Source: an uncultured Coriobacteriaceae bacterium (GTDB lineage: Bacteria > Actinomycetota > Coriobacteriia > Coriobacteriales > Atopobiaceae). From it: a stretch of 64,000 nucleotides of DNA. The notes beneath the pieces were generated by a model that saw only the letters and a list, made by a program, of their open reading frames with translations, did no database searches and was not told the origin of the DNA. The number at the start of each line of letters is the position of its first letter. Positions within the stretch are counted from its first letter, which is position 1. The stretch covers positions 62,001 through 126,000 of the forward strand of contig CADBDT010000004.1 in NCBI GenBank assembly GCA_902793465.1, written 5' to 3'. Below are positions 10,645 through 29,289 of this stretch, in pieces. The position numbers were made by a program, and so were the translations under genes.

Positions 10645-10664
10645 GAGTGCGTTCCGGCAAACGA

Positions 10665-10881
10665 CGTGCTCCTTGTGGATACTCCCCATCGGGTACATCG
10701 CGAGTTGCCCACCAGCGAGCTCGTGCCGGAACGGGGTGCCGCTAGGGGATACTCCCCCTCGGGTACATCGCGAGTTGCCCGTCTCATCATGAGTGGACTA
10801 TCCGCGATGTACCCGAGGGGGAGTATCCCCTAGCGGCACCCATCCGCGATGTACCCGAGGGGGAGTATCCCCAAGGAGCAT
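10665..10881. repeat. Palindromic element family A, outer copy interrupted by another copy
   Basis: The left arm GTGCTCCTTGTGGATACTCC (from 10667) leads into CCATCGGGTACATCGCGAG. The matching right arm is at 10842-10881 and ends GAGTATCCCCAAGGAGCAT. A complete second family A element, 10734-10841, sits inside it. It occupies the gap between the DUF2252 gene and hydE, which converge. Confidence 0.8.
10734..10841. repeat. Palindromic element family A, inner copy
   Basis: A complete 108-bp element bounded by GGGTGCCGCTAGGGGATACT and a right arm ending CCCCTAGCGGCACCC. It is embedded in the outer element, so at least one of the two arrived after the other. Confidence 0.85.
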
Positions 10882-10896
10882 CCCATGCATCAGCCT

Positions 10897-11946
10897 TTAC
10901 AGTCGTATGTCGCCGCGATCCACGGCCAACTCGTAGCCTATGAGGTTCATGCGGAGTCCCAGACAACCGCGACACTGTGCGGACTCCTCGCCCGTGCAAA
11001 TCTTGTTGTCGTACAGCTCGTACTGCTTGCGCACGGCGACGGGGGAGAGGTTGGGCATTACCACGTTGGCGCCGGCCAGCATGCCCTTTTCGCGACCGCG
11101 TGGGTCAATTGTGCCAAGAGCCGTGGTGGCGGGCAGGAGCACGGGCGGATATATGAGGCGAATGATGCTCAGCAGGTAGCAGGTGAGCTCCAGCGTGCCT
11201 GCGGGCTCGTTTGCAAACGGCGTGTCGTGGTGGGGAATAAAGGGGCCGATACCGCACATGTCGGGCTTGAACTCCTCCACGAAGCGCATCTCCTGTGCGA
11301 GGTGCGTCACGGTTTGGTGGGGCGAGCCAACCATAAACCCCGTGCCCACTTGGTAGCCGATGTCGCGCAGGTCTCGCAGGCACTGCATTCTTCTTTCCCA
11401 GCTCATCTCCTTGGGATGAAGGAGGCCGTAGTGTCCCTTGTTCGCTGTCTCGTGACGCAGAAGGTAGCGATTCGCGCCTGCGTCAAACAGGTTTTGGTAG
11501 CTTTGGCGGCTGCGCTCTCCCATGGAAAGGGTTACCGCGGTGTCCGGGCACGACTCCTTTATGCGGGCCACAATGCCGCCCAGAACGTCGTCCGAGAAGA
11601 ACGCGTCTTCGCCACCCTGCAGCACGATGGTGCGAAAGCCCAGCTTGTAGCCTTCGCGTGCGCAGGAAACAATAACGTCGGGTTCCAGGCGGTAGCGCTC
11701 CACGTTGTGGTTGGAGCGGCGTATGCCACAGTAGGTGCAGTCGTTCTTGCAAATGTTGCTTACCTCTATGAGCCCGCGCGTGAACACGGTTTTGCCATAG
11801 ATGGGTTCGCGGACGGCCACGGCCCTTTGGGCAAGCAGCTCGGCCGACTCGTTCGTTCGGTTTTGTATGAGCTCGCAATACTCGTCTTCGATTAGGTGAT
11901 GCGTCTCTTCCAGCTTGCAAACAAGCTCGGCGATTCTTTTGTCCAC
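10897..11946 (-). CDS. hydE: [FeFe]-hydrogenase H-cluster radical SAM maturase HydE
   Basis: A 349-residue radical S-adenosylmethionine enzyme. The [4Fe-4S] motif is CKNDCTYCGI (CxxxCxxC), preceded by FTRGLIEVSNI, typical of HydE. Further family signatures are VLQGGEDAFF and GTGFMVGSPHQT. HydE acts in the cytoplasm in building the diiron subcluster of the H-cluster. I chose GTG 11946 as start: it lies 8 bases after the hydF stop, behind GTAGGTGG, and gives a normal N-terminus. Longer readings overlap hydF. It forms an operon with hydF (transcribed hydF then hydE). Neither hydG nor a hydrogenase structural gene is in the window. Confidence 0.93.
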   Translation of the reverse strand: MDKRIAELVCKLEETHHLIEDEYCELIQNRTNESAELLAQRAVAVREPIYGKTVFTRGLIEVSNICKNDCTYCGIRRSNHNVERYRLEPDVIVSCAREGYKLGFRTIVLQGGEDAFFSDDVLGGIVARIKESCPDTAVTLSMGERSRQSYQNLFDAGANRYLLRHETANKGHYGLLHPKEMSWERRMQCLRDLRDIGYQVGTGFMVGSPHQTVTHLAQEMRFVEEFKPDMCGIGPFIPHHDTPFANEPAGTLELTCYLLSIIRLIYPPVLLPATTALGTIDPRGREKGMLAGANVVMPNLSPVAVRKQYELYDNKICTGEESAQCRGCLGLRMNLIGYELAVDRGDIRL

Positions 11947-11954
11947 AGCGCCAC

Positions 11955-13181
11955 CTACGCCTTCTGTAGTTGGTCGTGTACCTTGGGGAACAGGCGCACG
12001 CTCCGCTCGAGCGTGCCTGTCATCTGGGCGATGACAATACCGTAGTTGGTAAACGGGATTCCCTGGTCCTCGGCGCACTTCATGCGATACTGCACCTCGC
12101 GCTCGGTTATCATGCAGCCGCCACAGTGCACCACGAGGGCGTAGAGGCTCAGGTCCTCGGGGAACTCGCGGCCCGAGCACGTTTTTATCTGCAGGTCGCA
12201 GCTCGTGTGGGCGCGCAGCCAGCGGGGGATTTTTACCGTGCCAATGTCGTTGCACTGGCGATGGTGCGTGCATCCCTCTGCCATAAGCACAGCGTCTCCG
12301 TCCTTGAGGCCTTCCACGGCCGCAACACCTGCCACGGCCGTGTGTAGGAAGCCCTTGTAGCGCGCCATAAGAATGGAGAAGGACGTAAGAGGCACGTCGT
12401 TGGGGGTAATCTTGCTAACCACGCCGAAGGCTTGGCTGTCGGTTACCACGAGGGCAGGCTTGTGGCCCAAACGCTCGAGCGTATGTGCTAGCTCCGTCTC
12501 GCGACAAACCACGGCAATGGCGCCGGAGTCCAACACGTCGCGCACGGCCATCTGCTGCGGGAGGATGAGCCTTCCCTTTGGGGCCGACTCATCTATGGGG
12601 CATACCAGAACCACAAATTCGCCTGGCATTACGAGGTCGCCCAGCAGGCGATGGTCGGGATCCTGCTTGGGCGCGAGTGCACCGAGCCGATTCTTGAGTT
12701 CGTCTACGCCCTCTCCCGTATGGGCGCTTGCCACGATGGCATGGGCGCCGCCGGTCTTTGCAAGCGCTGCTCTTTGCGCGGTGGTAAGGAGGTCGGCTTT
12801 GTTGTGCACGACCACAAAGGGAATGTTTTTCTCCTCAAAGAGGCCAACAAGCTGATCGTCCACATCGCGCATTCCCGCCGTGGCGTCTACTACCAGCACG
12901 GCAATGTTTGTGCGGTTGAGGGTGCGCTTGGTGCGCAGGACGCGCGCCTCGCCCAGCATGCCCACGTCGTCGAACCCTGGCGTGTCCACGATTACCACGG
13001 GGCCCAGCGGAAGGAGCTCCATGGTCTTTTGGACGGGGTCGGTGGTCGTGCCGGCCACATCGGACACGAGCGCGAGGTCCTGCCCGGTTACGGCGTTTAC
13101 GATGCTCGACTTGCCGGCGTTTCGGCAACCAAAGAAGCCGATGTGCACGCGATTGGCGGAGGGTGTGGCGTTGAGGCTCAT
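11955..13181 (-). CDS. hydF: [FeFe]-hydrogenase maturation GTPase HydF
   Basis: A 408-residue GTPase and cluster scaffold. G-domain motifs: P-loop GCRNAGKSS near residue 20, DVAGTTTDPV, DTPGFDD and NKAD. The C-terminal cluster-binding part keeps the CxH motif in EGCTHHRQC and the HCxxC motif in VVHCGGCM, the HydF [4Fe-4S] ligand set. HydF carries the diiron precursor made by HydE and HydG and delivers it to apo-hydrogenase. The start at ATG 13181 gives the expected MSLNATPSANRVHIGFFG beginning. It is first in a two-gene unit with hydE. Upstream is the second family D repeat array. Confidence 0.95.
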   Translation of the reverse strand: MSLNATPSANRVHIGFFGCRNAGKSSIVNAVTGQDLALVSDVAGTTTDPVQKTMELLPLGPVVIVDTPGFDDVGMLGEARVLRTKRTLNRTNIAVLVVDATAGMRDVDDQLVGLFEEKNIPFVVVHNKADLLTTAQRAALAKTGGAHAIVASAHTGEGVDELKNRLGALAPKQDPDHRLLGDLVMPGEFVVLVCPIDESAPKGRLILPQQMAVRDVLDSGAIAVVCRETELAHTLERLGHKPALVVTDSQAFGVVSKITPNDVPLTSFSILMARYKGFLHTAVAGVAAVEGLKDGDAVLMAEGCTHHRQCNDIGTVKIPRWLRAHTSCDLQIKTCSGREFPEDLSLYALVVHCGGCMITEREVQYRMKCAEDQGIPFTNYGIVIAQMTGTLERSVRLFPKVHDQLQKA

Positions 13182-13299
13182 GTGAGTCGCTCCTCTCGGT
13201 CGGACGTATCCTCTCGGTCGGATTACCGTATTGTACTTATTCGTGCGCTGCACAACAAGAGGACAGGTCCGTGGCGCCGCGCGCACTCGCCGCCACGTG

Positions 13300-13513
13300 C
13301 CCCGCCACCGTGTACAGTTTTGGCACGTGCGGGTCCCTACCGTGCGCACTTATCGGCCACAACCGTACACGGTAGGGAAGGCTACGTCCCAAAACCGTAC
13401 ACGGTGCCCGCGGCCCGCCACCGTGTACAGTTTTGGGACCGACGGGACCCCACCGTGTACAGTCCGTTCCACCGTGTACAGTTCTAGCACGCGCGGGTCC
13501 CTACCGCGGACGA
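13300..13513. repeat. Repeat family D array, second locus
   Basis: Several copies of the same unit as at 1290-1575: CCGTGTACAGTTTTGG, then GCGGGTCCCTACCGTG and its variants. One inverted unit lies near 13360-13410 (CCGTACACGGTAGGGA). It fills much of the 482-base gap 13182-13663 upstream of hydF. No gene is seen in this gap. Confidence 0.8.
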
Positions 13514-14961: not shown

Positions 14962-15714
14962 ATGCTCAAGATTGCCCTGTATGGCAAGGGTGGCATTGGT
15001 AAGTCCACCATGACAAGTAACCTGGCGGCGGCGTTTGCCAGCCAGGGAAAGCGTGTAATTCAGATTGGGTGCGATCCCAAGGCGGACTCCACCATAAACC
15101 TGCTTGGCGGGCAGCCGCTCGAGCCCGTAATGAACTACATGCGCGAAAACGATAACGACCCGACCCTGGACCAGATTGCGCGCGAGGGCTTTGGTGGCGT
15201 GCTGTGCATAGAGACGGGCGGGCCAACCCCCGGTCTCGGCTGCGCAGGACGCGGCATAATAGCTACGTTTAACCTGCTGGAGGACCTGCGCCTGTTCGAG
15301 ACGTGGAAGCCCGACGTCGTGCTGTACGACGTGTTGGGCGACGTGGTGTGCGGCGGCTTTGCCGCGCCTATTCGCGAGGGCTATGCCGAGAAGGTCCTCA
15401 TTGTTACCTCGGGCGAGAAGATGGCGCTCTATGCCGCGAACAACATAAACACCGCCGTGCAGAACTTCGAGGACCGCGGGTACGCGCGCGTGGCAGGTAT
15501 TATCCTGAACCACCGCAACGTTCCCGACGAGGACGCCAAGGTTCGGGCGTTCGCGGACGAGCGAAACCTGCCCGTGGTAGCAAGCATCCCGCGAAGCGAC
15601 GACATAAACCGCTTTGAGGACGAGGGAAAGACCGTCGTAGAGGGCGACCCCTCGCTGCCGGTAAGCAAGTGCTTCCTGGACCTGGCGGCACGCCTGAGCG
15701 CGGGGGAGATCTAG
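14962..15714 (+). CDS. Nitrogenase reductase-like (NifH/BchL-type) ATPase, NflH
   Basis: A 250-residue P-loop protein of the NifH/BchL/CfbC superfamily, which as a dimer hydrolyses ATP to pass electrons from a [4Fe-4S] cluster to a component-1 partner. Visible features: Walker [10 protein letters not shown] at residues 9-16, switch motif CDPKADST at 37-44, and the two cluster cysteines Cys94 (GLGCAGRG) and Cys130 (DVVCGGF). It is shorter than true NifH (about 290 residues), and no FeMo-cofactor genes are near, so it is unlikely to be part of a dinitrogenase. It starts behind AAGGAGAG and is followed after 3 bases by nflD1. It heads the cluster that continues through hypFCDE. Substrate and pathway are unknown. 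Confidence 0.92.
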
Positions 15715-15717
15715 CCC

Positions 15718-17043
15718 ATGGAAAAAACCGCCCGTTACTACACGGCGGAGGAGATAGCGACTCGCGGGCTGGATAACCTGCCCGACGAGCTTGTCTCCAG
15801 CCGTCATCTTATATACAGCTCGCCAGCAACGCTCGCGTTCAACTCGCCCGGTGCCGAGGGATTTGGCGTAAAGCGGGCGGGCCTTGCTATTCCAGGATCC
15901 GTAATGCTGCTGGTGGCTCCCGGCTGCTGCGGACGCAACACCTCGCTTGTTAGCAACATGCCGGCCTACAAGGACCGCTTCTTTTACCTCAACATGGCCG
16001 AGACCGACATTGTTACGGGGCGCCACCTAAAAAAGATTCCCCAGGCGGTGGAGGAGGTGGTCGAGTGCCTGCCGGAACGACCGTCGCTGGTAATGATTTG
16101 CATTACCTGCGTTGATGCCCTGCTGGGAACAGACATGGAACGCGTGTGTAGGCGTGCGCAGGAGCGCGTGGGGCTGCCCGTGCGGCCGTGCTACATGTAT
16201 GCGCTCACGCGCGAGGGACGTCGTCCGCCCATGGTGCATGTGCGCCAGAGCCTCTATTCGCTGCTCGAGCCGCTAAAGAAGCGGCCGACCTCGGTAAACC
16301 TCCTTGGCTTCTTTGCCCCGCTGGTGGACGACTGCGAGCTGTACGGGTATCTGCGCGGGCTCGGCGTAAAAACCGTGCGCGAGATTTCCCGCTGTTCCAG
16401 CTACGACGAGTTCCTGCGCATGGCCGAGGCCAACTTTAACCTCGTACTGCACCCCGAGGCGCGTTTTACTGCGGCCGACCTACAGGAACGTTTGGGGATT
16501 CCCTCCATCGAGCTCATGCGACTGTACGACGTAGATCGCATTCGCAGCCAGTACAAGGCACTGGGACAGGTGCTGGGCGCAAAGTTTGACGATGCGGCCG
16601 ACTACGACGCTGCCCTTGCGGCTGTTAAGGCGTTTGCTGCCGTGGCCCCGCGCGCGACCTTTAGCGTGGGCGAGTGCCTAAACGGCGACGCGTTTGAGCT
16701 TGCGTTGGCGCTCGTGCGCTACGGCTTTGAGGTGCGGGAGGTGTTTGGCACCGTGCAAGCCGAGAACTTCGCGTTCGTGCGACGTCTTGCGCAGGCCAGC
16801 CCCTCCACGCGCATCTATTCCAACATGGAGCCCACCATGCTGTACTACGATGCGGCAGGTTGTCCGGTGGACGTGTGCTTGGGCAAGGACGCGGGGTGGT
16901 ATCACCCCGAGGCGGCGTACCTGGCGTGGAACGAGGACGTGCAGCCCTACGGCTATGCGGGCGTGCGGCGTCTGTTTGAGGCGCTGCGGAATGTGGTGGC
17001 GTCGCGTAGTGCAAACGGTGACCAGGGAGGGGATAACGCATGA
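15718..17043 (+). CDS. Nitrogenase component-1-like subunit (NifD/NifE-type), NflD1
   Basis: A 441-residue protein of the nitrogenase component-1 superfamily. Candidate cluster ligands: Cys70-Cys71 (APGCCGRN), and Cys128 and Cys131 (ICITCVDALLGTD, in the position of the NifD CPxxLIGDD loop). NMAETDIVTGRHLKKIPQA matches the region in NifD and NifE that reads like DVVFGG.KKL. It overlaps nflK1 by the ATGA at 17040-17043, so the pair is almost certainly translated together as a heteromer. It is a clear paralogue of the gene at 23147. It could be a catalytic protein or a scaffold for assembling a metallocluster; sequence alone cannot decide. GGGGGAG precedes the start. Confidence 0.88.
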   Translation: MEKTARYYTAEEIATRGLDNLPDELVSSRHLIYSSPATLAFNSPGAEGFGVKRAGLAIPGSVMLLVAPGCCGRNTSLVSNMPAYKDRFFYLNMAETDIVTGRHLKKIPQAVEEVVECLPERPSLVMICITCVDALLGTDMERVCRRAQERVGLPVRPCYMYALTREGRRPPMVHVRQSLYSLLEPLKKRPTSVNLLGFFAPLVDDCELYGYLRGLGVKTVREISRCSSYDEFLRMAEANFNLVLHPEARFTAADLQERLGIPSIELMRLYDVDRIRSQYKALGQVLGAKFDDAADYDAALAAVKAFAAVAPRATFSVGECLNGDAFELALALVRYGFEVREVFGTVQAENFAFVRRLAQASPSTRIYSNMEPTMLYYDAAGCPVDVCLGKDAGWYHPEAAYLAWNEDVQPYGYAGVRRLFEALRNVVASRSANGDQGGDNA

Positions 17044-18092
17044 GGGGACTTCGAAAGTACCTAACGCCGTTTGCGCCCGACCAGTCCGGCGCCGTAAGCG
17101 TGCTGTACGAGCTCGGCGGCATAGTGGTGGTATGCGATGCGGGCGGATGTACGGGAAACATATGCGGCTTTGACGAACCGCGCTGGACCGCGGGCATTAT
17201 GGGCACACAGCGTCCCGAGTCCTTGCTGCGAAGCGCCGTGTTTAGTGCTGGCCTGCGCGACATGGACGCCATCCTGGGTCGCGACGACAAGCTCGTGGCG
17301 GAGCTTGCCGACGCCGCCAGCAAGATTGAGGCCAACTTTGCAGCGGTGGTGGGCACACCGGTGCCGGCGGTTATTGGCACCGACTACCGCGCGCTGCGCC
17401 GCATGGCGGAGCGGAAGTGCGACCTTCCGGTTCTTACCGTAGACACCACGGGCATGGAGCTCTACGACGTTGGCGCGAGCAAGGCGTACGTGGAGCTCTT
17501 TGACCGGTTTGCCGTCGAACAGCTGCCCGTGGAGGAGGGCCGCATAACCTATCTGGGGGCCAATCCCCTGGACCTGAGCCGCATTCCGCCCGAGTGGATG
17601 AGCCTCTCTTTTTCCGACGTCGTAACCGCCTCTGCTGCGCAGAAGAACGTTGTTGTGGCCCCCTCGGGCCTGGCTGCGGCAAAGCTGCTCGAACGGCGCT
17701 TTGGCACGCCATACGAGGTGGCAAATCCGCTCGCGGGCCTTGGCGAGGAGGCTCAGCCGGACTCGCGCTTGTCGGTTGAGGGAAGGCGCGTCCTTGTGGT
17801 GGACCAGCAGGTGACTGCCAATACCATGCGCGAGGAGCTGCTGGAACGCGGTGCCGCGAGCGTTACCTGCGCCACGTGGTTTATGCAGCTGCCCGAACTC
17901 TCGCAGGAGGGCGATGTGCGTCTGCGCGAGGAGGACGACTTCGAGGAGCTCGTGTATGGCGGGGACTTCGACGTGCTTGTTGGGGACCCGGCGCTCTGGC
18001 GCATTGTGGGCAGCTTTGAGGGCCAAACCGTAGACCTGCCGCAGTTTCCGGTTTCGGGCAACTTGGCGGAGGCTTTGGGAGCTGCGCTATGA
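17040..18092 (+). CDS. Nitrogenase component-1-like subunit (NifK/NifN-type), NflK1
   Basis: A 350-residue partner subunit. The N-terminal region has QSGAVSVLYELGGIVVVCDA with Cys32, then Cys37 and Cys42 (GGCTGNICGFDEPRW). The Gly-Cys and RW positions match NifK-like proteins. AVIGTDYRALRRMAERKCDL corresponds to the second cluster-proximal region. It is shorter than NifK (about 510) and closer to NifN-like minimal proteins. Its TGA overlaps the hypF ATG (18089-18092), a translational coupling that ties a nitrogenase-like subunit to a hydrogenase-cofactor enzyme. It is paralogous to the gene at 24587. Confidence 0.87.
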   Translation: MRGLRKYLTPFAPDQSGAVSVLYELGGIVVVCDAGGCTGNICGFDEPRWTAGIMGTQRPESLLRSAVFSAGLRDMDAILGRDDKLVAELADAASKIEANFAAVVGTPVPAVIGTDYRALRRMAERKCDLPVLTVDTTGMELYDVGASKAYVELFDRFAVEQLPVEEGRITYLGANPLDLSRIPPEWMSLSFSDVVTASAAQKNVVVAPSGLAAAKLLERRFGTPYEVANPLAGLGEEAQPDSRLSVEGRRVLVVDQQVTANTMREELLERGAASVTCATWFMQLPELSQEGDVRLREEDDFEELVYGGDFDVLVGDPALWRIVGSFEGQTVDLPQFPVSGNLAEALGAAL

Positions 18093-20527
18093 GCACAAAA
18101 CGCATCCGCGCATATGGCATAGTGCAGGGAGTGGGCTTTAGACCCACGGTGGACAGGCACGCCACGGCTGCGGGAATTACGGGCACGGTGTGCAACAAGG
18201 GTCCCTACGTGGAGATTTTTGCGCAGGGGAGTAACGAGCGCATCGAACGGTTTTTGGAGCTCCTGCGCACCCAGCCGCCGCGCCGTGCGGCCGTGCTCAA
18301 GCTGGACGTAAAGGCGGTGGAGGAAGCCCCGCAATACAGCACCTTTTCCATAGTGGAGAGCAAAAAGACGAGCGGAGAGATATTCGTTTCGCCCGACATT
18401 GCCATTTGCGAGGACTGCGCGCGCGAGCTGCATGATCCCAGCAACAGGCGTTATCTTCATCCGTTTATAAACTGCACCTGCTGCGGGCCGCGCATGACCA
18501 TTCTGGATGCGCTTCCCTACGATCGCGAGCGCACCAGCATGCGGGAGTTTGCCATGTGCGATGCCTGCTCGAGCGAATACCACGATCCTTCGAGCAGACG
18601 CTACGACGCGCAGCCGGTGTGCTGCAACGACTGCGGTCCCGTTGTCTACCTTGTGGACAGGCCGGAACGCGGGGCCGAGGCCATTACTGCGGCGCGTCGC
18701 GTGGTGGCGCAGGGAGGCGTGGTGGCCATAAAGGGCATAGGCGGGTTTCACCTGTGCTGCGACGCCACCAGTCCCTCGGTAGTGGAGCTTCTTCGTACGC
18801 GCAAGCGCAGGCTGGTAAAGCCCTTTGCGGTAATGGCGCGCAACCTGGACGTCGCGCGCCGCGAGTGCGTGGTGTCGTCCGTGGCTCAGGAGATTCTTAC
18901 CGGGCATCAGAAGCCGATCCTGCTGCTTCCCAAGCGCGAGGGTGGCAAGGCATGCGAAGCGGTAGCGCCCGGCAACCCAAAGCTGGGAATAATGCTGCCG
19001 TATGCGCCGCTCCATCTCCTGCTGTTTGACTACGATGACGAAATCCAGATGCCCGACCTCCTGGTAATGACAAGTGCAAACGAGTCGGGTGCGCCCATAT
19101 GCCGAGACGACGATGACGCTCGTTGCGAGCTTGGCGGGCTGTGCGATGCCATTCTTTCGCACAACCGCAGGATTCGCGTGCGAGCGGACGATACGGTTAT
19201 GGATCTTTTTGAGAACAAGCCCTATATGGTGCGCCGCTCGCGTGGGTGGGCGCCCTTGCCCGTGCTCTTGTCCAAGGACTTTGGTGCGCGCGTGCTGGCT
19301 GTGGGCGGAGAGCTAAAAAACACGTTTTGCCTGGCCTCGCGCGACATGTACTATCCGTCTCCCTACGTGGGCGACTTGGGTGACGTACGCACGGTGCATG
19401 CGTTGGAAGAGACGATCGACCGGTTCCAGACCCTGCTGGAGTTCGAACCGCAGGTGGTCGCGTGCGATCTGCATCCCAAGTACAACTCCACGTTGGTGGC
19501 GCAAGAGACGGCTCGTCGCGCGGGCGTTTCCGTGATCGAGGTCCAGCACCACTTTGCCCACGTGGCGTCGTGCATGGCAGAAAACGACGTGCCCGATGGC
19601 GCCAAGGTAATAGGCGTCTCCTTCGACGGCACCGGCTATGGCACGGACGGCACCGTGTGGGGCGGCGAGATTCTGCTGTGCGACTACGAGGGCTTCGAGC
19701 GGCTGGAACATATAGCCCCGTTTGCCCAGGCAGGCGGCGATATGGCCGCCAAGGAGGGTTGGCGCGTTGCCGTGGGCATGCTGGGCGACGGCGAGGACGC
19801 CGCGCTGGTGGCCGAACGGCTTGGGATGTGTACGAAGGAGGAGGCGCGTGTGGTGCAGGCCATGGTTCGACGTGGCGTTAATACCGTAACCTCCACAAGC
19901 GCGGGCAGGCTGTTTGACGCGGTAAGCGCCGTGCTGGGCGTGCGCAGGTGCTCCACGTACGAAGGTGAGGCCGCAACACAGCTTCAGTTTGCGGCGGAGC
20001 GGGCGAGGTCGTCTGTTGGTGCGGATGATGAGCTGCCACGTTTCGCGCAAACGGACGAGCTCTTTGCATGGATAGTGGAGCGCCGACTTGCGGGCGAAGA
20101 CGCGGGGCGGCTGGCATATGCGTTCCATCTGGGACTCGCGCGTTATGTGGAGGACGCCTGCATACGGGCGCGCGAGAGCACCGGCACGAACGTGGTGGCT
20201 CTTACGGGCGGCTGTTATCAGAACCTGTTGCTGCTCGAGCTCAGTGTGGAGAGGCTCCGCACCCAAGGCTTTGACGTGCTTACGCATAGCCTTGTTCCGA
20301 CTAACGATGGCGGCATTGCACTGGGCCAAGCCGTGGTGGCGGCAAAGAGGAGTGGGTCTGTCCGGAAGGACCTGGGTCGGCGTCGAACGCAGGAGGTGCC
20401 CGTGCTCAAACAGTCCTCGCTGCGCTGCGGAACTGCGCGCGGGCACGCTTCTGCGTCCACCGCCGACCCAGGTCCTTCGATGCGGGGACATGAAGGAACG
20501 GAGACGCGTTCCCTAAGGCCCGGATAG
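18089..20527 (+). CDS. hypF: Carbamoyltransferase HypF with a repeat-derived C-terminus
   Basis: An 812-residue enzyme that makes the thiocarbamate on HypE from carbamoyl phosphate and ATP, the precursor of the cyanide ligands of [NiFe]-hydrogenase. Order of domains: acylphosphatase-like (YGIVQGVGFRPTVDRHA, residues 1-90); two zinc motifs (CEDC with CTCCGPR, and CDAC with CCNDCGP, about 110-185); YrdC-like (about 200-380); and Kae1-like (VQHHFAHVASC, FDGTGYGTDGTVWGG). HypF homology ends near residue 755 (NDGGIALGQAVVAAKR). The last roughly 55 residues are encoded by a family F palindromic element. The start overlaps nflK1. HypC, HypD and HypE follow. No HypA or HypB gene is in the window. Confidence 0.95.
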   Translation: MSTKRIRAYGIVQGVGFRPTVDRHATAAGITGTVCNKGPYVEIFAQGSNERIERFLELLRTQPPRRAAVLKLDVKAVEEAPQYSTFSIVESKKTSGEIFVSPDIAICEDCARELHDPSNRRYLHPFINCTCCGPRMTILDALPYDRERTSMREFAMCDACSSEYHDPSSRRYDAQPVCCNDCGPVVYLVDRPERGAEAITAARRVVAQGGVVAIKGIGGFHLCCDATSPSVVELLRTRKRRLVKPFAVMARNLDVARRECVVSSVAQEILTGHQKPILLLPKREGGKACEAVAPGNPKLGIMLPYAPLHLLLFDYDDEIQMPDLLVMTSANESGAPICRDDDDARCELGGLCDAILSHNRRIRVRADDTVMDLFENKPYMVRRSRGWAPLPVLLSKDFGARVLAVGGELKNTFCLASRDMYYPSPYVGDLGDVRTVHALEETIDRFQTLLEFEPQVVACDLHPKYNSTLVAQETARRAGVSVIEVQHHFAHVASCMAENDVPDGAKVIGVSFDGTGYGTDGTVWGGEILLCDYEGFERLEHIAPFAQAGGDMAAKEGWRVAVGMLGDGEDAALVAERLGMCTKEEARVVQAMVRRGVNTVTSTSAGRLFDAVSAVLGVRRCSTYEGEAATQLQFAAERARSSVGADDELPRFAQTDELFAWIVERRLAGEDAGRLAYAFHLGLARYVEDACIRARESTGTNVVALTGGCYQNLLLLELSVERLRTQGFDVLTHSLVPTNDGGIALGQAVVAAKRSGSVRKDLGRRRTQEVPVLKQSSLRCGTARGHASASTADPGPSMRGHEGTETRSLRPG
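20365..20478. repeat. Palindromic element family F, copy 1, inside the hypF 3' end
   Basis: The 18-bp stem arms GAAGGACCTGGGTCGGCG (20365-20382) and 20461-20478 are perfect reverse complements. The loop holds TGCTCAAACAGTCCTCGC and GCGGAACTGCGCGCG. The same loop occurs in opposite orientation in copy 2. The element is translated as the end of HypF. Confidence 0.8.
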
Positions 20528-20632
20528 GGGCGTGGCGGCGGGCGGCTCGTCACGCGCGCAGTTCCGCAGCGAGCGAAGCGATGCGAGGACTGTTTGAGCA
20601 CGTGGCGAACGCCCGCCGCCACGCCCCTATCC
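20522..20632. repeat. Palindromic element family F, copy 2
   Basis: The 23-bp arms begin GGATAGGGGCGTGGCGGCGG (20522) and end CCGCCACGCCCCTATCC (20632). The loop carries CGCGCGCAGTTCCGC and GCGAGGACTGTTTGAGCA, the reverse complement of the copy 1 loop, with an extra ATCGCTTCGCT segment. Stem sequences of the two copies are unrelated while the loops are conserved. Confidence 0.8.
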
Positions 20633-20705
20633 TGGTCGCAGGGAACATACTACGAAAACATGCGCGGCTCGTCGTTGTGCGAGGCGCTTTACGAAAGGAG
20701 AGACT

Positions 20706-20918
20706 ATGTGCGTAGGACTTTCTGCAAAGGTGGTACGAATTCAGGACGGTATGGCTATGGTAGACGCGTCGGGTGCGCGTCGCGAGGTGTCGGTGCAGCT
20801 TATGGACGATGTTGAGCCCGGTGACTACGTTATGGTCCATGCTGGCATTGCCATTGCGAAGATAACCGACGAGGACGACAGCGAGGCCGATGAGGTTATG
20901 GAGGCGCTTTTGTCATGA
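20706..20918 (+). CDS. hypC: Hydrogenase maturation chaperone HypC
   Basis: A 70-residue protein beginning MCVGLSAKVV. The invariant Cys2 of the HypC/HupF family is a ligand for the Fe(CN)2CO unit. The remainder (GMAMVDASGARREVSVQLM, VEPGDYVMVHAGIAIAKI) is the standard OB-like domain, with a normal length. HypC works with HypD to hold iron while cyanide and CO are added. GAAAGGAGAGACT precedes the ATG. It is separated from hypF only by family F repeats and overlaps hypD by ATGA, so the original operon was probably tighter. Confidence 0.96.
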   Translation: MCVGLSAKVVRIQDGMAMVDASGARREVSVQLMDDVEPGDYVMVHAGIAIAKITDEDDSEADEVMEALLS

Positions 20919-21967
20919 GCACCACGGCTAGGGAGGCGGCAGCGGAGATCCTTAGGTCCTACGACGGGCCTGCGCTGCGCATTATGGAAGTGTGCGGGAC
21001 GCACACGCACGAGATCTTTAGGCTGGGCATTCGCAAGCTGCTGCCGCAGCAGGTAGACCTTATTTCCGGTCCAGGATGTCCTGTGTGCGTAACGCCAGTG
21101 GGCTTTATTGACGAGGCTGTTTGGCTGGCAGAGCATGGGGTTACTGTTACAACCTTTGGCGACCTCGTGCGGGTTCCGGGAACGAGCAAGAACCTGGCAG
21201 ACGCCCGTGCTGCCGGTGGTCGCGTTCAGGTTGTGTATTCGCCGCTCGATGCGCTCGTTTATGCAAAGGAGCATGCGGACGAGCAGGTGGCGTTCTTGTC
21301 GGTGGGATTCGAGACCACCATCCCGGCGGCCTGCCTGGCGGCGGATCAGGCGCATGAGGAGGCCGTGGGGAACTTTAGCCTTCTTACGGCCAACAAGACG
21401 ATGCCCAATGCGTATGCTGCGCTGCGACAGAGTGCCGACGTGTTTTTGTATCCGGGACACGTGCATGCCATTACGGGCACGGGGCTCTGCGAGGAGCTTG
21501 CAAGACAGGGAGTGAGCGGAGTGCTTGCTGGCTTTACTGCAAACGAGCTGGTAACGGCGCTTGCAGTGGCGGTACGCAAGTTCCAGGAGGGAAAGCCGTT
21601 TTTTGTTAACGCATACCCTCGCGTGGTGCGTTCGGAGGGAACGCCGGCAGCTGTGGCGCTTATGGAAAAGGTAATGGAGCCCGTGGATGCCGAATGGCGT
21701 GGCCTGGGCGTTATCCCGCAGTCGGGACTGCAGTTGCGCGAGGCATACGCGGGCGTGGACGCGCGCAAGAAGTTTGACATGCCGCATATTGAGGGCAAGC
21801 CGAATCCGGCATGCAGGTGCGGAGAGGTTCTTCAGGGGCACTGCAAGCCCTCGGACTGCCCACTGTTTGGCAAGGTATGCTCGCCGCAGCATCCGGTGGG
21901 GGCTTGTATGGTATCGGGCGAAGGCGCCTGCTCGGCGTACTTCCAGTACGGAGGTGGTTTGCTGTGA
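20915..21967 (+). CDS. hypD: Hydrogenase maturation protein HypD
   Basis: A 350-residue iron-sulfur protein, the platform on which HypC-HypD assembles Fe(CN)2CO. Conserved residues: Cys27 in EVCGTHTHEIFR, Cys55 and Cys58 in SGPGCPVC, and the C-terminal cysteine cluster binding a [4Fe-4S] centre (CRCGEVLQGHCKPSDC, CSPQHPVGACMVSGEGAC). TVGFETT-type sequence appears as LSVGFETTIPAACLA. All key cysteines are intact, so the protein should be functional. It overlaps hypC by four bases, and its stop overlaps the hypE start. Confidence 0.97.
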   Translation: MSTTAREAAAEILRSYDGPALRIMEVCGTHTHEIFRLGIRKLLPQQVDLISGPGCPVCVTPVGFIDEAVWLAEHGVTVTTFGDLVRVPGTSKNLADARAAGGRVQVVYSPLDALVYAKEHADEQVAFLSVGFETTIPAACLAADQAHEEAVGNFSLLTANKTMPNAYAALRQSADVFLYPGHVHAITGTGLCEELARQGVSGVLAGFTANELVTALAVAVRKFQEGKPFFVNAYPRVVRSEGTPAAVALMEKVMEPVDAEWRGLGVIPQSGLQLREAYAGVDARKKFDMPHIEGKPNPACRCGEVLQGHCKPSDCPLFGKVCSPQHPVGACMVSGEGACSAYFQYGGGLL

Positions 21968-22968
21968 GCAAACAGGTTACATTGGCCATGGGGGCTGGCG
22001 GAAAGCAGACGGCAGAGCTCATAGATGCGGTATTTGCCAAGCGGTTCCAGAGCCCGCTCCTTACGGCGGACGACGCTGCGGTTCTCGAGCGGCCGGCAGG
22101 CAGGATTGCCATGTCGACAGACGGGTTTATAGTGTCGCCGTCGTTCTTTCCTGGTGGCAACATTGGCAAGCTGAGCGTGTGCGGCACGGTTAACGACTTG
22201 GCGTGTATGGGCGCGCGGCCGCTCTACCTTACCTGTGCGTTTGTTATTGAGGAAGGGTTCGAGCTCGCCAAGCTCGAGCAGATTGCCGATGCCATGGCTG
22301 CCACGGCGGCCGAAGCTGGCGTTACCCTTGTTGCTGGCGACACCAAGGTTGCTGGCAAAGGCCAGGTGGATGGTGTGTTTATTACCACGACGGGTGTGGG
22401 CGAGGTCGTAGAGGACGCCGCGCCTGCTGGTGCCAATGCGCGGCCTGGCGACGCGATTATAGTTACGGGTGACGTTGGTCGCCACGGCTGCACCATTCTG
22501 CTGGCGCGCGACGACTTTGGAATTGAGGCAGACGTAACGTCGGACTGCGCTCCGCTCTGGTCGAGCGTGGAGGCTATGTTGGATGCGAGCAAGAACATCC
22601 ACGTTATTCGCGATGCGACGCGCGGCGGTGTGGGCACGGTGCTGTACGAAATAGCCGCACAGAGCGGCGTGGGGGTTTCGCTGGATGCCGCGGCAGTGCC
22701 GGTCGATCCTGCTGTTGGCGGCGTATGTCGCATGTTGGGGCTCGAACCGCTCTACCTTGCCTGTGAAGGCAGGCTGGTGGTTATTGCTCCAGAAGAGGAG
22801 GCCCCGGCGCTGGTGGATGCGCTGCGATCTGCCCCGCATTCGGGCGGTGCCGCCATAATCGGTCGGATTACCAACGAGCAGCCTGGCTGGGTGGTTATGA
22901 ACACGGAGGTGGGAACGCAGACGCTGCTGCCTCAACCCACTGGAGAGCTGCTGCCGCGCATCTGCTAG
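21964..22968 (+). CDS. hypE: Hydrogenase maturation protein HypE
   Basis: A 334-residue PurM-like ATPase that dehydrates the thiocarbamate placed on its C-terminal cysteine by HypF, giving the thiocyanate that donates CN to iron. The N-terminal MGAGGKQTAELIDAVF, the ATP-binding region DDAAVLE and STDGFIVSPSFFPGGN, and the essential C-terminal tail ending PRIC (Cys334) are all present. The GTG at 21964 overlaps the hypD stop and lies behind GGAGGTGG. The gene ends the overlapping hypC-hypD-hypE run. A family A repeat follows, then nflD2. Confidence 0.96.
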   Translation: MSKQVTLAMGAGGKQTAELIDAVFAKRFQSPLLTADDAAVLERPAGRIAMSTDGFIVSPSFFPGGNIGKLSVCGTVNDLACMGARPLYLTCAFVIEEGFELAKLEQIADAMAATAAEAGVTLVAGDTKVAGKGQVDGVFITTTGVGEVVEDAAPAGANARPGDAIIVTGDVGRHGCTILLARDDFGIEADVTSDCAPLWSSVEAMLDASKNIHVIRDATRGGVGTVLYEIAAQSGVGVSLDAAAVPVDPAVGGVCRMLGLEPLYLACEGRLVVIAPEEEAPALVDALRSAPHSGGAAIIGRITNEQPGWVVMNTEVGTQTLLPQPTGELLPRIC

Positions 22969-22995
22969 CGCATTGGTGAGCAGGCTGTCTTAAAT

Positions 22996-23105
22996 GCCGT
23001 GCCGTTAGGGATATTCCCCTACGGGTACATTGCGGATAGTCCACCTCGTGCAAAGGTGTTCTGCTCGCGATGTACCCGATGGGGAGTATCCCCTAACGGC
23101 ACGGC
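22996..23105. repeat. Palindromic element family A, copy 3
   Basis: The outer arms GCCGTGCCGTTAGGG and CCCTAACGGCACGGC enclose GGGTACAT and ATGTACCC. One arm carries a small change (GGGATATTCCCC instead of GGGGATACTCCCC). It lies between hypE and nflD2 and is followed by AGTTTTCGGACGG, a flank shared with copies 1 and 8. It probably interrupts what was one operon. Confidence 0.85.
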
Positions 23106-23146
23106 CTACCACCACGAGTTTTCGGACGGTATAAGGAGGGATGTTA

Positions 23147-24463
23147 ATGCTTAAGCGATTGGGTCCATCGGTTGTGGCAGCGGGGGACGCGACTGCTCCC
23201 GAGCTCTTTGCATCCAAGCTGGAGTTTAACCCTCCGGCGCACGGCACGTGGAACATCGTGCACATTGGCATGCTGGTGCCCGAGGCGCATCAGATATACG
23301 TTTGTGCGCTCAACTGCATGCGTGGCGTAGTGCTTACTGCCGCCGAGATGGGCGCGCGCGATCGGTTTTCGTGCGTGATCCTTAAGGAAGAGGACATCAC
23401 GAAGGGTAAGGTCGAAGAGGTTACCCTGCGCGGCATCTCCGACGTGCTCCATAAGCTTGAGGCGCATGCAGGTCTTCCACCCTGCGTGCTGGTGTTTCCC
23501 GTGTGTACGCACCTGTTTTTGGGCATCAACATGGCGCATGTGTATCGCGAGCTTGAGGCCGAGTTTCCCGACGTGGACTTCGTGCGTGCCTTTATGGACC
23601 CCATTTCCAAGCGAAGGCTTATTCCCGACCAGCGATTGCGCAAGGTTATGTACGACCCGCTGCCTGCGTGCGAAGCCGACCCGCGTCTGGTGGCGCTGTT
23701 GGGAAGCGATTTTGCGCTCGATCCAGATGCGGACCTGCGCATCTTGTTGGCCAAGGGTGGATACGATTTTAGGAGCGTGCACGACTGCGCGACTTACGAC
23801 GAGTTCAAGGGGCTTGCACGTGCCAGCACTATGCTGTGCACATACCCTGGCGGCTTGTTTGGCGCAAAAAAGGTTTCGGCGAGGCTCCAGCGTCGGTTGC
23901 TGTATGTGCCGTCGTCATTTGACTATGCAGAGATCGAGCACCACGAGCGCGAGCTGTGCAAGACGCTTGGCATAGAGCTTCCCGACTTCGAGGCCCAACG
24001 TGCGTTGTGCGACGAGGCACTGGAACGCGTTAGGGTAGTGCTGGGAAGCGCTCCCATAGCGCTTGATGCCGTCGCACATCCGCGTCCGCTGGGCATGGCG
24101 CGCCTGCTGCTGGAACACGGGCTCAACGTTACAGAGGTGTACCTGGATGCCGTCAATCCCGAAGAGGCGGACGAGCTGTCGTGGCTTCGCGACCACGCGC
24201 CAGGGGTTCAGCTGTCGTCTACGGTGCTTCCCGAGCTACGCGTGGCACCGCGCGTTCGAGACCGCAAGACGTTAGCCATTGGACCGCGCGCCGCATGGTT
24301 CTGTGGCACATCGTACTTCGTTAACATTGTGCAAGGTGCCGGCCTGTGGGGCTTTGCGGGCATTCGTACCCTCGCAAGGTTGATGCTGGAGGCATGGGAG
24401 TCGCCCAAAGACCCGCAAGACATCATCCCGCGCAAGGGCTTTGGCTGCCCAAGCTGCTTCTAG
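23147..24463 (+). CDS. Nitrogenase component-1-like subunit (NifD/NifE-type), NflD2
   Basis: A 438-residue protein paralogous to NflD1. Candidate cluster ligands are Cys53 and Cys57 (YVCALNCMRGVV), Cys113 and Cys120 (LVFPVCTHLFLGIN). LKEEDITKGKVEEVTLRGI matches the NifD-like region that follows the first cysteine. The C-terminus ends FGCPSCF, a CxxC pair that NflD1 lacks and that could bind metal or act in redox. ATG 23147 is better spaced from AGGAGG than the ATG at 23141. The gene lies 123 bases before nflK2. The protein should pair with NflK2 and take electrons from NflH, the only reductase-like protein in view. Substrate unknown. Confidence 0.87.
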   Translation: MLKRLGPSVVAAGDATAPELFASKLEFNPPAHGTWNIVHIGMLVPEAHQIYVCALNCMRGVVLTAAEMGARDRFSCVILKEEDITKGKVEEVTLRGISDVLHKLEAHAGLPPCVLVFPVCTHLFLGINMAHVYRELEAEFPDVDFVRAFMDPISKRRLIPDQRLRKVMYDPLPACEADPRLVALLGSDFALDPDADLRILLAKGGYDFRSVHDCATYDEFKGLARASTMLCTYPGGLFGAKKVSARLQRRLLYVPSSFDYAEIEHHERELCKTLGIELPDFEAQRALCDEALERVRVVLGSAPIALDAVAHPRPLGMARLLLEHGLNVTEVYLDAVNPEEADELSWLRDHAPGVQLSSTVLPELRVAPRVRDRKTLAIGPRAAWFCGTSYFVNIVQGAGLWGFAGIRTLARLMLEAWESPKDPQDIIPRKGFGCPSCF

Positions 24464-24586
24464 AGCAAAACAGCGCCCGTACCTCGCGCGGCAAAGGCGC
24501 TTCTTAACAACTTGCCCATGCCTCCTCGAAAGCATGGCGGCAAACAGTATGCTGTTTGCGACGAGAGAACAACCGACGGAGACTGT

Positions 24587-25702
24587 ATGAACAGAAGCTA
24601 TCGCATACTACCAACCTACACGGGCGATGTGTCGGGTGCGTGCTCCGCACTCTTCGAGCTGGGCGGCATGGTGGTCATCCACGACCCATCGGGCTGCAAC
24701 TCCACGTACAACACGCATGACGAGACGCGCTGGTACGACAGGGACAGCCTCGTGTTCATTACCGGTCTCGTTGAGCGTGACGCGATTCTGGGCAACGACC
24801 AAAAGCTCGTGGACGACGTGGTGGATGCCGCGCTTGAGCTCAAGCCTCGCTTTATCGCGCTCTGCAACTCGCCCATACCCTTTATTTCCGGCACCGACTT
24901 CCGGGCGCTGTGCAAGATCATAGAGCGAAAGACGGGAATTCCCGCCTTTTACGTAAGCACCAACGGCATGCACGACTATGTGATAGGCGCGGGCAACGCG
25001 TTTGCCCAAATAGCCCAGCGCTTTGTTGCGGATGGAGCGCCCAGGGCACGTGCGCTCAACATAATGGGCGTTACGCCCCTGGATTTTTGCACGTCGGGCG
25101 AGGTACAGGCGCTGCACGACTTTGCGTACGATGCCGGCTACAAGGTTGTGTCGTGCTGGGCAATAGGCTCGAGCCTGGACGATCTGGCACTTTCTGCGCA
25201 GGCAAGCGTAAACTTGGTGGTGTCGTCCACGGGTCTTTTGGCCGCCCGTGTGCTGCGCGAGCGATTTGGAACACCCTATGTGGTGGGAACTCCCGTGGGG
25301 ACGTTTTCGCAGGTACTTGGGGCGGCTCTTAAGGAGGCCGAGCTTACGGGGTCATGCGCTTGGCCATGCCGCGACGTGCGCGAACCGGCGGGGGACGGCT
25401 CTGCGTGCATAGTTGGCGAGCCTGTTGCGGCGGGGTCCGTGGCCGCTGCGCTGCAACGCGATGCGGGGCCAATGCGTGTGGTGTGTCCGCTCGAGTGTGA
25501 GCCAGAGATGCTGTCCAACTGTGACGTACGCGCATATGGCGAGGAGGCAATCGAGGAGGCGCTTGCTGGTGCCAGCCTCGTTGTTGCCGACAAGTTCTAC
25601 GAGCCCATTTGCCCGCCTGCTGCACGCCTGCGCGTTTGGCCGCACTTTGCCCTTTCGGGAAGGCAATGCTTCGCACAGGAGAGAGACCCTCGGCTGTCGT
25701 AA
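24587..25702 (+). CDS. Nitrogenase component-1-like subunit (NifK/NifN-type), NflK2
   Basis: A 371-residue paralogue of NflK1. The shared pattern DVSGACSALFELGGMVVIHD is followed by GCNSTYNTHDETRW, so Cys37 is kept while the positions of NflK1 Cys32 and Cys42 are His and Thr/His. Cluster binding therefore probably differs between the two pairs. FISGTDFRALCKIIERKTG and YVSTNGMHDYVIGAGNAF align with the matching parts of NflK1. ATG 24587 lies behind ACGGAGACTGT; a longer reading from 24512 has no clear ribosome site. A tandemly duplicated family A repeat begins at its stop codon. Confidence 0.86.
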   Translation: MNRSYRILPTYTGDVSGACSALFELGGMVVIHDPSGCNSTYNTHDETRWYDRDSLVFITGLVERDAILGNDQKLVDDVVDAALELKPRFIALCNSPIPFISGTDFRALCKIIERKTGIPAFYVSTNGMHDYVIGAGNAFAQIAQRFVADGAPRARALNIMGVTPLDFCTSGEVQALHDFAYDAGYKVVSCWAIGSSLDDLALSAQASVNLVVSSTGLLAARVLRERFGTPYVVGTPVGTFSQVLGAALKEAELTGSCAWPCRDVREPAGDGSACIVGEPVAAGSVAAALQRDAGPMRVVCPLECEPEMLSNCDVRAYGEEAIEEALAGASLVVADKFYEPICPPAARLRVWPHFALSGRQCFAQERDPRLS

Positions 25703-25927
25703 GACAGCTGTGGTGATGGTGTGCCGCAAGGGGATACTCCCCATCGGGTACATCGCGAGCGGACCATTCCGTTACGAGGGACTTATCCGCGATGTACCCG
25801 TAAGACAGCTGTGGTGATAGTGTGCCGCAAGGGGATACTCCCCATCGGGTACATCGCGAGCGGACCATTCCGTTACGAGGGACTTATCCGCGATGTACCC
25901 GTAGGGGAGTATCCCCTTGCGGCACAC
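25700..25927. repeat. Palindromic element family A, copy 4, with a 101-bp tandem duplication
   Basis: The unit 25700-25800 is repeated at 25801-25901 with one visible base difference (GATGGT versus GATAGT). Each unit holds the left arm GTGCCGCAAGGGGATACTCC and the start of the right arm. The complete right arm, ending CCCCTTGCGGCAC, is present only after the second unit. The duplication begins in the nflK2 stop codon. Confidence 0.85.
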
Positions 25928-25981
25928 TATGCTTGCAGTTGTTTGGGGATGGGAGCTGTGCCAGGAATCACCCGTGTCGCG

Positions 25982-29090: not shown

Positions 29091-29097
29091 GTGTTGG

Positions 29098-29250
29098 ATA
29101 GAGGAGCAACTACGATGAGACATGGGATAGTCGGCGGGCTGTGACCACATGTGGAGGCGATGGTTGCCGAACTGGAATGCGTGGCAACGGATTCTGGTGG
29201 GGCTGGGGGGAATACCCTCAGAACTGTCTGCGAGTAGAGTGTTGCTTGCG
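29098..29250 (+). promoter_or_regulatory. Probable lysine riboswitch (L box) upstream of dapA
   Basis: The closing stem P1 is formed by GCAAC (29106-29110) with GTTGC (29241-29245). Core sequences agree with the L-box pattern: GAGGAGCAACTACGATGAG at the 5' side, TTGCCGAACTGG in the middle, and AGAACTGTCTGCGAGTAGAG before the closing strand. An intrinsic terminator 40 bases downstream and the identity of the target gene (first enzyme of lysine synthesis) fit transcriptional control by lysine. This is from memory of the consensus, not a covariance-model hit. Confidence 0.75.
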
Positions 29251-29289
29251 GGGGAGCTATCTTGTGGTCGTTTGGCGTTGATGCTTTGT

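Follow-up and report, generated by a model that had tools for sequence, protein, structure and literature searches.

HydG is regarded as the natural source of the carbon monoxide (CO) and cyanide (CN) ligands of the H-cluster of [FeFe]-hydrogenase: it cleaves tyrosine to CO and CN, the resulting Fe(CO)2CN(Cys) synthon passes to HydE, and HydF delivers the [2Fe] unit to HydA. Fe(CO)2CN is normally handed by HydG to HydE (PMC11736057), and HydG was reported, on motif-based calls, as not found in some Clostridium acetogens, the mechanisms there being 'not yet identified' (PMC9431212). In the maturation of [NiFe]-hydrogenase, carbamoyl phosphate is the source of the cyanide that HypF and HypE produce, and HypC-HypD build Fe(CN)2CO (PMC6802093). 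Here we analysed a 64,000-nucleotide stretch of contig CADBDT010000004.1 from an uncultured Coriobacteriaceae bacterium (the whole stretch is called the window; all coordinates are window positions) and, within it, a block of nine genes in which one NifH-like reductase and two pairs of nitrogenase component-1-like subunits (here nfl) are arranged around hypFCDE. Judged from the sequences, the block very probably replaces HydG as the source of Fe-CN/CO for the [2Fe] subcluster of the H-cluster, because the strict absence of HydG and the recurrent HydE, HydF and TM1266 neighbours point to H-cluster maturation. Searches of the open literature gave surveys of nitrogenase-like proteins and no prior link between hyp genes, nitrogenase-like proteins and [FeFe] maturation, with subscription papers and preprints mostly outside their coverage.

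The relation between block and HydG was followed in 79 genomes, 50 of them block-bearing (including genome G248; G and L denote our genomes and loci), in which HydG was called as a TIGR03955 match over cut-off. HydG was found in none of the 50 block-bearing genomes, and the 8 of 79 genomes that do encode it are all block-negative, including both block-negative members of the window's genus; this genus and the genus g14 each hold both types. HydF is over cut-off in 59 of the 79 genomes, of which 49 have only the block, 8 only HydG, 2 neither and none both (Fisher p 2e-8 for block versus HydG among these 59, with no correction for kinship). The one block-bearing genome without HydF over cut-off (49/50 positive) is G379, which is 88% complete, and the other 19 of the 20 genomes without HydF have neither HydG nor the block. 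Among 400 genomes of the Coriobacteriia, 43 were positive for HydG and 27 for the block, with an overlap of zero. HydE is present in 48/50 block-bearing genomes, as read from cross-matches to the HydG model and confirmed in the fetched loci. The trees of HydE and HydF mix the two types, with five label changes of which at least three to four are forced by supported branches; the exclusivity therefore arose several times and does not go back to a single coincidence passed on by descent, and these maturases appear to function with either supplier.

The genetic context of the block points the same way. When the flanking genes were clustered over 38 long loci (two phyla: Coriobacteriia and several families of Bacillota), HydE, HydF and the TM1266 regulator emerged as the recurrent families, all three overlooked in the first-pass annotation of this DNA. 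One or more of them occur near 31 of the 38 loci. In 15 loci, spread over both phyla, the block has hydF or hydE as its immediate neighbour on its own strand, as in the Lachnospiraceae locus L070 (H-D1-K1-hypFCDE-TM1266-D2-K2-hydF-hydE) and the Coriobacteriia locus L138 (hypF..K2-hydF-hydE); in Bacillota, TM1266 is located inside the block. HydG lies near the block in 0/38 loci; in HydG-positive congeners it is found between HydE and HydF (L136, L137). That block genomes keep HydF, HydE and HydA-type proteins, mostly without a [NiFe]-hydrogenase, and that the block often stands beside or in an operon with hydF/hydE, argues for the replacement of HydG, as does the intactness of the Hyp catalytic residues and of all three H-cluster motifs (TSCSPGW, MPCTAK, EIMGCPGGCV) in the HydA of the window's genome. 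In the window, the pair hydF and hydE precedes nflH by 1.8 kb, on the opposite strand, and the block runs H-D1-K1-hypF-C-D-E-D2-K2 from 14962 to 25702, entirely on the plus strand:

hydE, 10897..11946, minus strand: radical S-adenosylmethionine (SAM) [FeFe]-hydrogenase H-cluster maturase with the radical SAM motif CKNDCTYC (TIGR03956 550 bits, cut-off 255); recurrent block neighbour
hydF, 11955..13181, minus strand: [FeFe]-hydrogenase maturation GTPase/scaffold (TIGR03918 548 bits, cut-off 326)
nflH, 14962..15714, plus strand: NifH-like ATP-dependent reductase (Fer4_NifH PF00142 294 bits; P-loop GKGGIGKS)
nflD1, 15718..17043, plus strand: component-1 alpha-like subunit (PF00148 114 bits)
nflK1, 17040..18092, plus strand: component-1 beta-like subunit (PF00148 46 bits)
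hypF, 18089..20527, plus strand: carbamoyltransferase, first step of the CN ligand (TIGR00143 732 bits, cut-off 466)
hypC, 20706..20918, plus strand: Fe(CN)2CO scaffold chaperone (TIGR00074 67 bits, cut-off 48)
hypD, 20915..21967, plus strand: Fe-S scaffold for Fe(CN)2CO (PF01924 426 bits; curated model 370 bits, cut-off 193)
hypE, 21964..22968, plus strand: carbamoyl dehydratase, thiocyanate carrier (TIGR02124 410 bits, cut-off 252)
nflD2, 23141..24463, plus strand: second, strongly diverged component-1 alpha-like subunit (fold by profile and predicted structure)
nflK2, 24587..25702, plus strand: second component-1 beta-like subunit (PF00148 100 bits)

Reading frames overlap by ATGA at D1/K1, K1/hypF and hypC/hypD and by GTGA at hypD/hypE. 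For nflK2 the start ATG 24587 is favoured as more likely than TTG 24512, and for hypE GTG 21964 is the more likely start. PF00148 matches in the window's genome are confined to the block genes. The gene content and single-strand arrangement of the nfl-hypFCDE cluster, including the ATGA at nflK1/hypF, had been read in the same way in the first-pass annotation. Its proposal that Nfl and HypFCDE form one functional unit also held across genomes, where a lack of conserved hyp neighbours would have spoken against it: co-localisation is conserved in every relative locus long enough to show it, and within the window's family hypD occurs in no genomes other than the 26 D1-positive ones and G248. The latter seemed to have hypD without D1; its contig carries the block, truncated where the contig ends and linked to hydF-hydE.

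The relatives were collected with D1, for which a GTDB contig scan gave 16 relatives and strong matches were obtained in 26/400 Coriobacteriia and 19/299 Lachnospiraceae genomes. Over the 38 loci hypFCDE is complete in 36, the other two (L008, L144) being cut by the contig end or by the fetched stretch, and D2K2 is present in 35. The gene order is H-D1-K1-hypF-C-D-E-(H2)-D2-K2, a second NifH-like gene preceding D2 in many loci, and D2-K2-H-D1-K1-hypFCDE in some Lachnospiraceae. Such synteny across two phyla rules out chance clustering in a single assembly. In some congeners nflD2 and nflK2 stand 1.6-4 kb apart (L009 9389-13503, L085 5-6383), so D2K2 is not necessarily made from one transcript, and in L071 (G483) hydE directly follows hypE, with no D2K2 within the 20 kb stretch. 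The weaker D1 matches belong to a sister HDK type that has one DK pair and lacks hyp genes (L086-L095, L004, L160). On plasmids of Treponema and Sporomusa (L004 14223-17396; L160 8001-11273) this type adjoins iron-type ATP-binding cassette (ABC) transporters, and it is possibly metal- or corrinoid-linked.

HypF, HypC, HypD and HypE each score above their curated cut-offs and retain what the synthesis of Fe(CN)2CO calls for: the acylphosphatase, zinc-finger, YrdC and Kae1-like domains of HypF, the C-terminal PRIC of HypE (terminal cysteine invariant, 11/11), the CGTHTH, GPGCPVC and C-terminal cysteines of HypD, invariant among the relatives, and Cys2 of HypC (11/11), where MCVGLS replaces MCxGxP in the window's genus. 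With HypFCDE intact, and with hypD common in the class (268 of the 295 hypD-positive genomes lie outside the window's family), one might suppose that these genes mature a conventional [NiFe]-hydrogenase encoded elsewhere and that nfl is an accidental neighbour. We give this a negligible probability and rejected the block as a servant of [NiFe]-hydrogenase: the large subunit (PF00374) is absent from the window's genome, which is 98.7% complete, and from the 25 other block-bearing family members sampled; the block-bearing Negativicutes G410 and G411, which do have a [NiFe] enzyme, carry a separate hyp set, with hypC-D-E beside that enzyme; and the synteny extends over two phyla. The nfl HypD proteins form one clade with support 100/100, apart from [NiFe] HypD including those of G410 and G411. 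HypA and HypB are not encoded inside the block, and no whole-genome search for them was made. The isoprene reductase, considered as a precedent for orphan hyp genes (PMC10134865), has hypA/hypB only and not hypCDEF.

Regarding the nitrogenase-like subunits, the P-loop and the cluster cysteines Cys94 and Cys130 of NflH, already noted in the first pass, are intact, both cysteines being invariant across 18 relatives, and the protein forms its own clade, separate from NifH and BchL. NflD1 matches nitrogenase component-1 chains in its predicted structure (predicted local distance difference test, pLDDT, 86). NflD2 has no match in Pfam or NCBIfam; a profile match to VnfD/NifE (E 2e-5) and a predicted structure (pLDDT 84; nitrogenase fold, E 6e-13) indicate that it is a protein of the nitrogenase component-1 fold. 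NflD1 Cys71 and Cys131 align with the P-cluster residues Cys88 and Cys154 of NifD, Cys128 being extra, and NflK1 Cys37 aligns with NifK Cys95, Cys42 of NflK1 being conserved as well. NflD2 has invariant Cys55, Cys59, Cys122, His124 and Cys216 and also a conserved C-terminal Cys439; in NflK2 (numbered from ATG 24587) Cys37, His32, His44 and His353 are invariant. When the four subunits were aligned together with NifDKEN and BchNB, all four had cysteine in the alpha-Cys88/beta-Cys95 column, only D1 and D2 had it in the alpha-Cys154 column, and none retained it at alpha-Cys62/beta-Cys70, so that each DK pair has three of the six P-cluster-position cysteines, two in D and one in K. Together with one further ligand these would be enough for a [4Fe-4S] cluster. 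Of the iron-molybdenum cofactor (FeMoco) ligands, alpha-Cys275 is not conserved (His/Asp/Asn in D1, Tyr/Asn/Glu in D2), and no histidine stands in the alpha-His442 column of D1 or D2, where the alignment is less sure.

These residues bear on whether the block could belong to a described family. A Mo, V or Fe nitrogenase (NifDK) was rejected, as the FeMoco ligands, the full six P-cluster cysteines and NifB are all lacking in the window's genome, and a NifB-derived cofactor finds no support, with NifB over cut-off in 1/50 block-bearing genomes. The positive genome, G115 (L156; 389 bits), may also fix nitrogen or hold another nitrogenase-like system. The component-1 fold, the NifH-type partner and an H protein that scores equally for the NifH and CfbC models could suggest a tetrapyrrole or C-S bond reductase, of the type of dark-operative protochlorophyllide oxidoreductase (DPOR), CfbCD or methylthio-alkane reductase (MAR), that acquired hyp genes. 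This is very improbable, since scores stay below the cut-off for every one of these family models, NifB is nearly absent as stated, the cysteine set differs, and what recurs beside the block is genes for hydrogenase maturases, not substrate genes. For DPOR (BchLNB), BchL and BchB scores are far under cut-off, the first cysteine of N-type subunits is missing and the proteins are separate in trees. For CfbCD, H scored 298 bits against a cut-off of 402 and D1 19 against 268, and there are two subunits per enzyme versus a single D. MAR is described by six P-cluster cysteines, MarD Cys270 and MarB (PMC12552129); here the cysteine set differs, no NifB-like gene occurs in the window's genome and the profile match to 9fmg/9d9u is weak. 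The nitrogenase-like trees contained no MAR or CfbD sequences. Membership of BchLNB or CfbCD had been named in the first-pass annotation as what would undo its reading; cysteine alignment and trees place the proteins outside BchLNB, and the comparison with CfbCD, made by family-model score only, puts them below the cut-offs.

That annotation took D1K1 and D2K2 for a catalytic metalloenzyme with a Hyp-derived cofactor, in which case HydE and HydF might be nearby to help assemble this cofactor or for another reason. The resemblance of two DK pairs to a nitrogenase with its scaffold, and the conserved C-terminal cysteine of D2, would fit such an enzyme. It would leave unexplained why none of the 50 block genomes has HydG, why HydG and block alternate within genera and on the HydE/HydF trees, and why TM1266, a regulator of [FeFe]-hydrogenase, sits inside the Bacillota blocks, and we consider it improbable. 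The part of that interpretation in which a reductase acts on a Hyp-derived unit may well be right; a new metalloenzyme with a Hyp-derived cofactor of its own is disfavoured by the Hyd neighbours and the absence of HydG.

If the block replaces HydG, HypF and HypE would turn carbamoyl phosphate into cyanide, which HypC-HypD would load together with CO onto one iron, as expected from the function of their families. NflH could then feed ATP-driven low-potential electrons into D1K1 and D2K2, one of which might reductively convert the Hyp-made Fe(CN)2CO, by ligand exchange, to a synthon with one CN and two CO, or alternatively produce the additional CO out of CO2 or formate. A scaffold role, analogous to that of NifEN for NifDK, might fall to the other pair, with D2, in view of its extra cysteines and invariant C-terminal cysteine, as a guessed holder of the Fe-CN/CO unit. 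Since the same HydE/HydF lineages have HydG in some members and the block in others, the final product is probably a compound that HydE already uses. The remodelling chemistry of Nfl itself, adding CO and removing surplus CN, is proposed tentatively. For the route as a whole, a second and independently evolved path to the H-cluster in which the Fe(CN)2CO of HypFCDE is reductively remodelled into HydE's synthon by two nitrogenase-like complexes, we see the chances as evenly balanced.

A variant of HydG replacement limits Nfl to the ATP-driven conversion of CO2 to CO, Hyp supplying CN and HydE/HydF carrying out the assembly. It accounts for the reductive enzymes, as more CO is needed than Hyp supplies; the block shows no other source of CO, and nitrogenase Fe proteins are known to reduce CO2 to CO. 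We nevertheless hold it for rather unlikely, since HypC and HypD, known for mounting ligands on iron, would not be needed and yet are conserved with the block, and since two different DK pairs are not accounted for.

Several observations weigh against HydG having been replaced by the block. Measured against the H-cluster, Fe(CN)2CO carries one CN too many and one CO too few, so that an extra, unproven step is needed. In seven of the 38 loci the fetched stretch contains no Hyd gene, and the window's own hydFE are on the strand opposite to the block. The genome-wide HydE calls come from cross-matches and fetched loci, no dedicated HydE search having been made. Two HydF-positive genomes, G085 (L141) and G423 (L139, L140), have neither HydG nor the block, which could be explained by gene loss or decay, draft gaps or a third route. 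Most genomes are metagenome-assembled or drafts; assembly gaps behind 50 independent HydG losses would be implausible.

Some further elements were observed in the window. A palindromic intergenic repeat of ~40-50 bases (GGGGATACTCCCC..CGGGTACATCGCG and complement), which looks like a repetitive extragenic palindromic (REP)-type element, is present in many copies, sometimes as tandem 101-base units, with sites at 10660-10888, at 22992-23109 between hypE and nflD2, and at 25698-25932. Three imperfect 49-base direct repeats lie upstream of hydF (13296-13508), and a lysine riboswitch (RF00168, 73 bits) precedes dapA-dapB (29091-29267).

Should the proposed role be correct, there would be two biosynthetic solutions to the H-cluster, the HydG-free one being widespread in gut and rumen bacteria, and genomes with HydE and HydF and no HydG would be explained. 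HypCDEF would operate outside [NiFe]-hydrogenase, a tyrosine-independent maturation system would become available to biotechnology, and a single pathway would unite chemistry of the nitrogenase type, ligand synthesis of the [NiFe] type and the assembly of [FeFe]-hydrogenase. A function would also be given to a nitrogenase-like protein group that has gone unassigned since at least 2012.

Among described systems, the uncharacterised 'NifHEN-like' sequences from Coprococcus catus and Dorea longicatena in Dos Santos et al. 2012 (PMC3464626), matched by description and not by name, are probably the same genes as nfl: they occur as two linked copies, their D/E-like subunit has two cysteines and their K/N-like subunit one, and the text consulted mentions neither hyp genes nor a link to hyd and assigns no function. 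The NflHDK of Treponema and Sporomusa are the nearest H, D and K relatives found (H 55-56% identical) and differ in having a single DK pair, no hyp genes and ABC transporters as neighbours. With NifHDK plus NifEN the block shares one NifH-like reductase, two DK-type pairs and the component-1 fold; it differs in the halved P-cluster cysteine set of each pair, the lack of FeMoco ligands and the lack of NifB. With the [NiFe] HypCDEF branch it shares intact catalytic residues, from which Fe(CN)2CO is expected, and it differs by having no HypA/HypB inside the block, by a genome (that of the window) without large subunit, by a HypD clade of its own and by the MCVGLS of HypC. With the HydEFG pathway, finally, block genomes have in common HydE, HydF, HydA-type proteins, TM1266 and the same predicted target, the H-cluster, whereas HydG, the tyrosine lyase, appears replaced here by nine or ten non-homologous genes.

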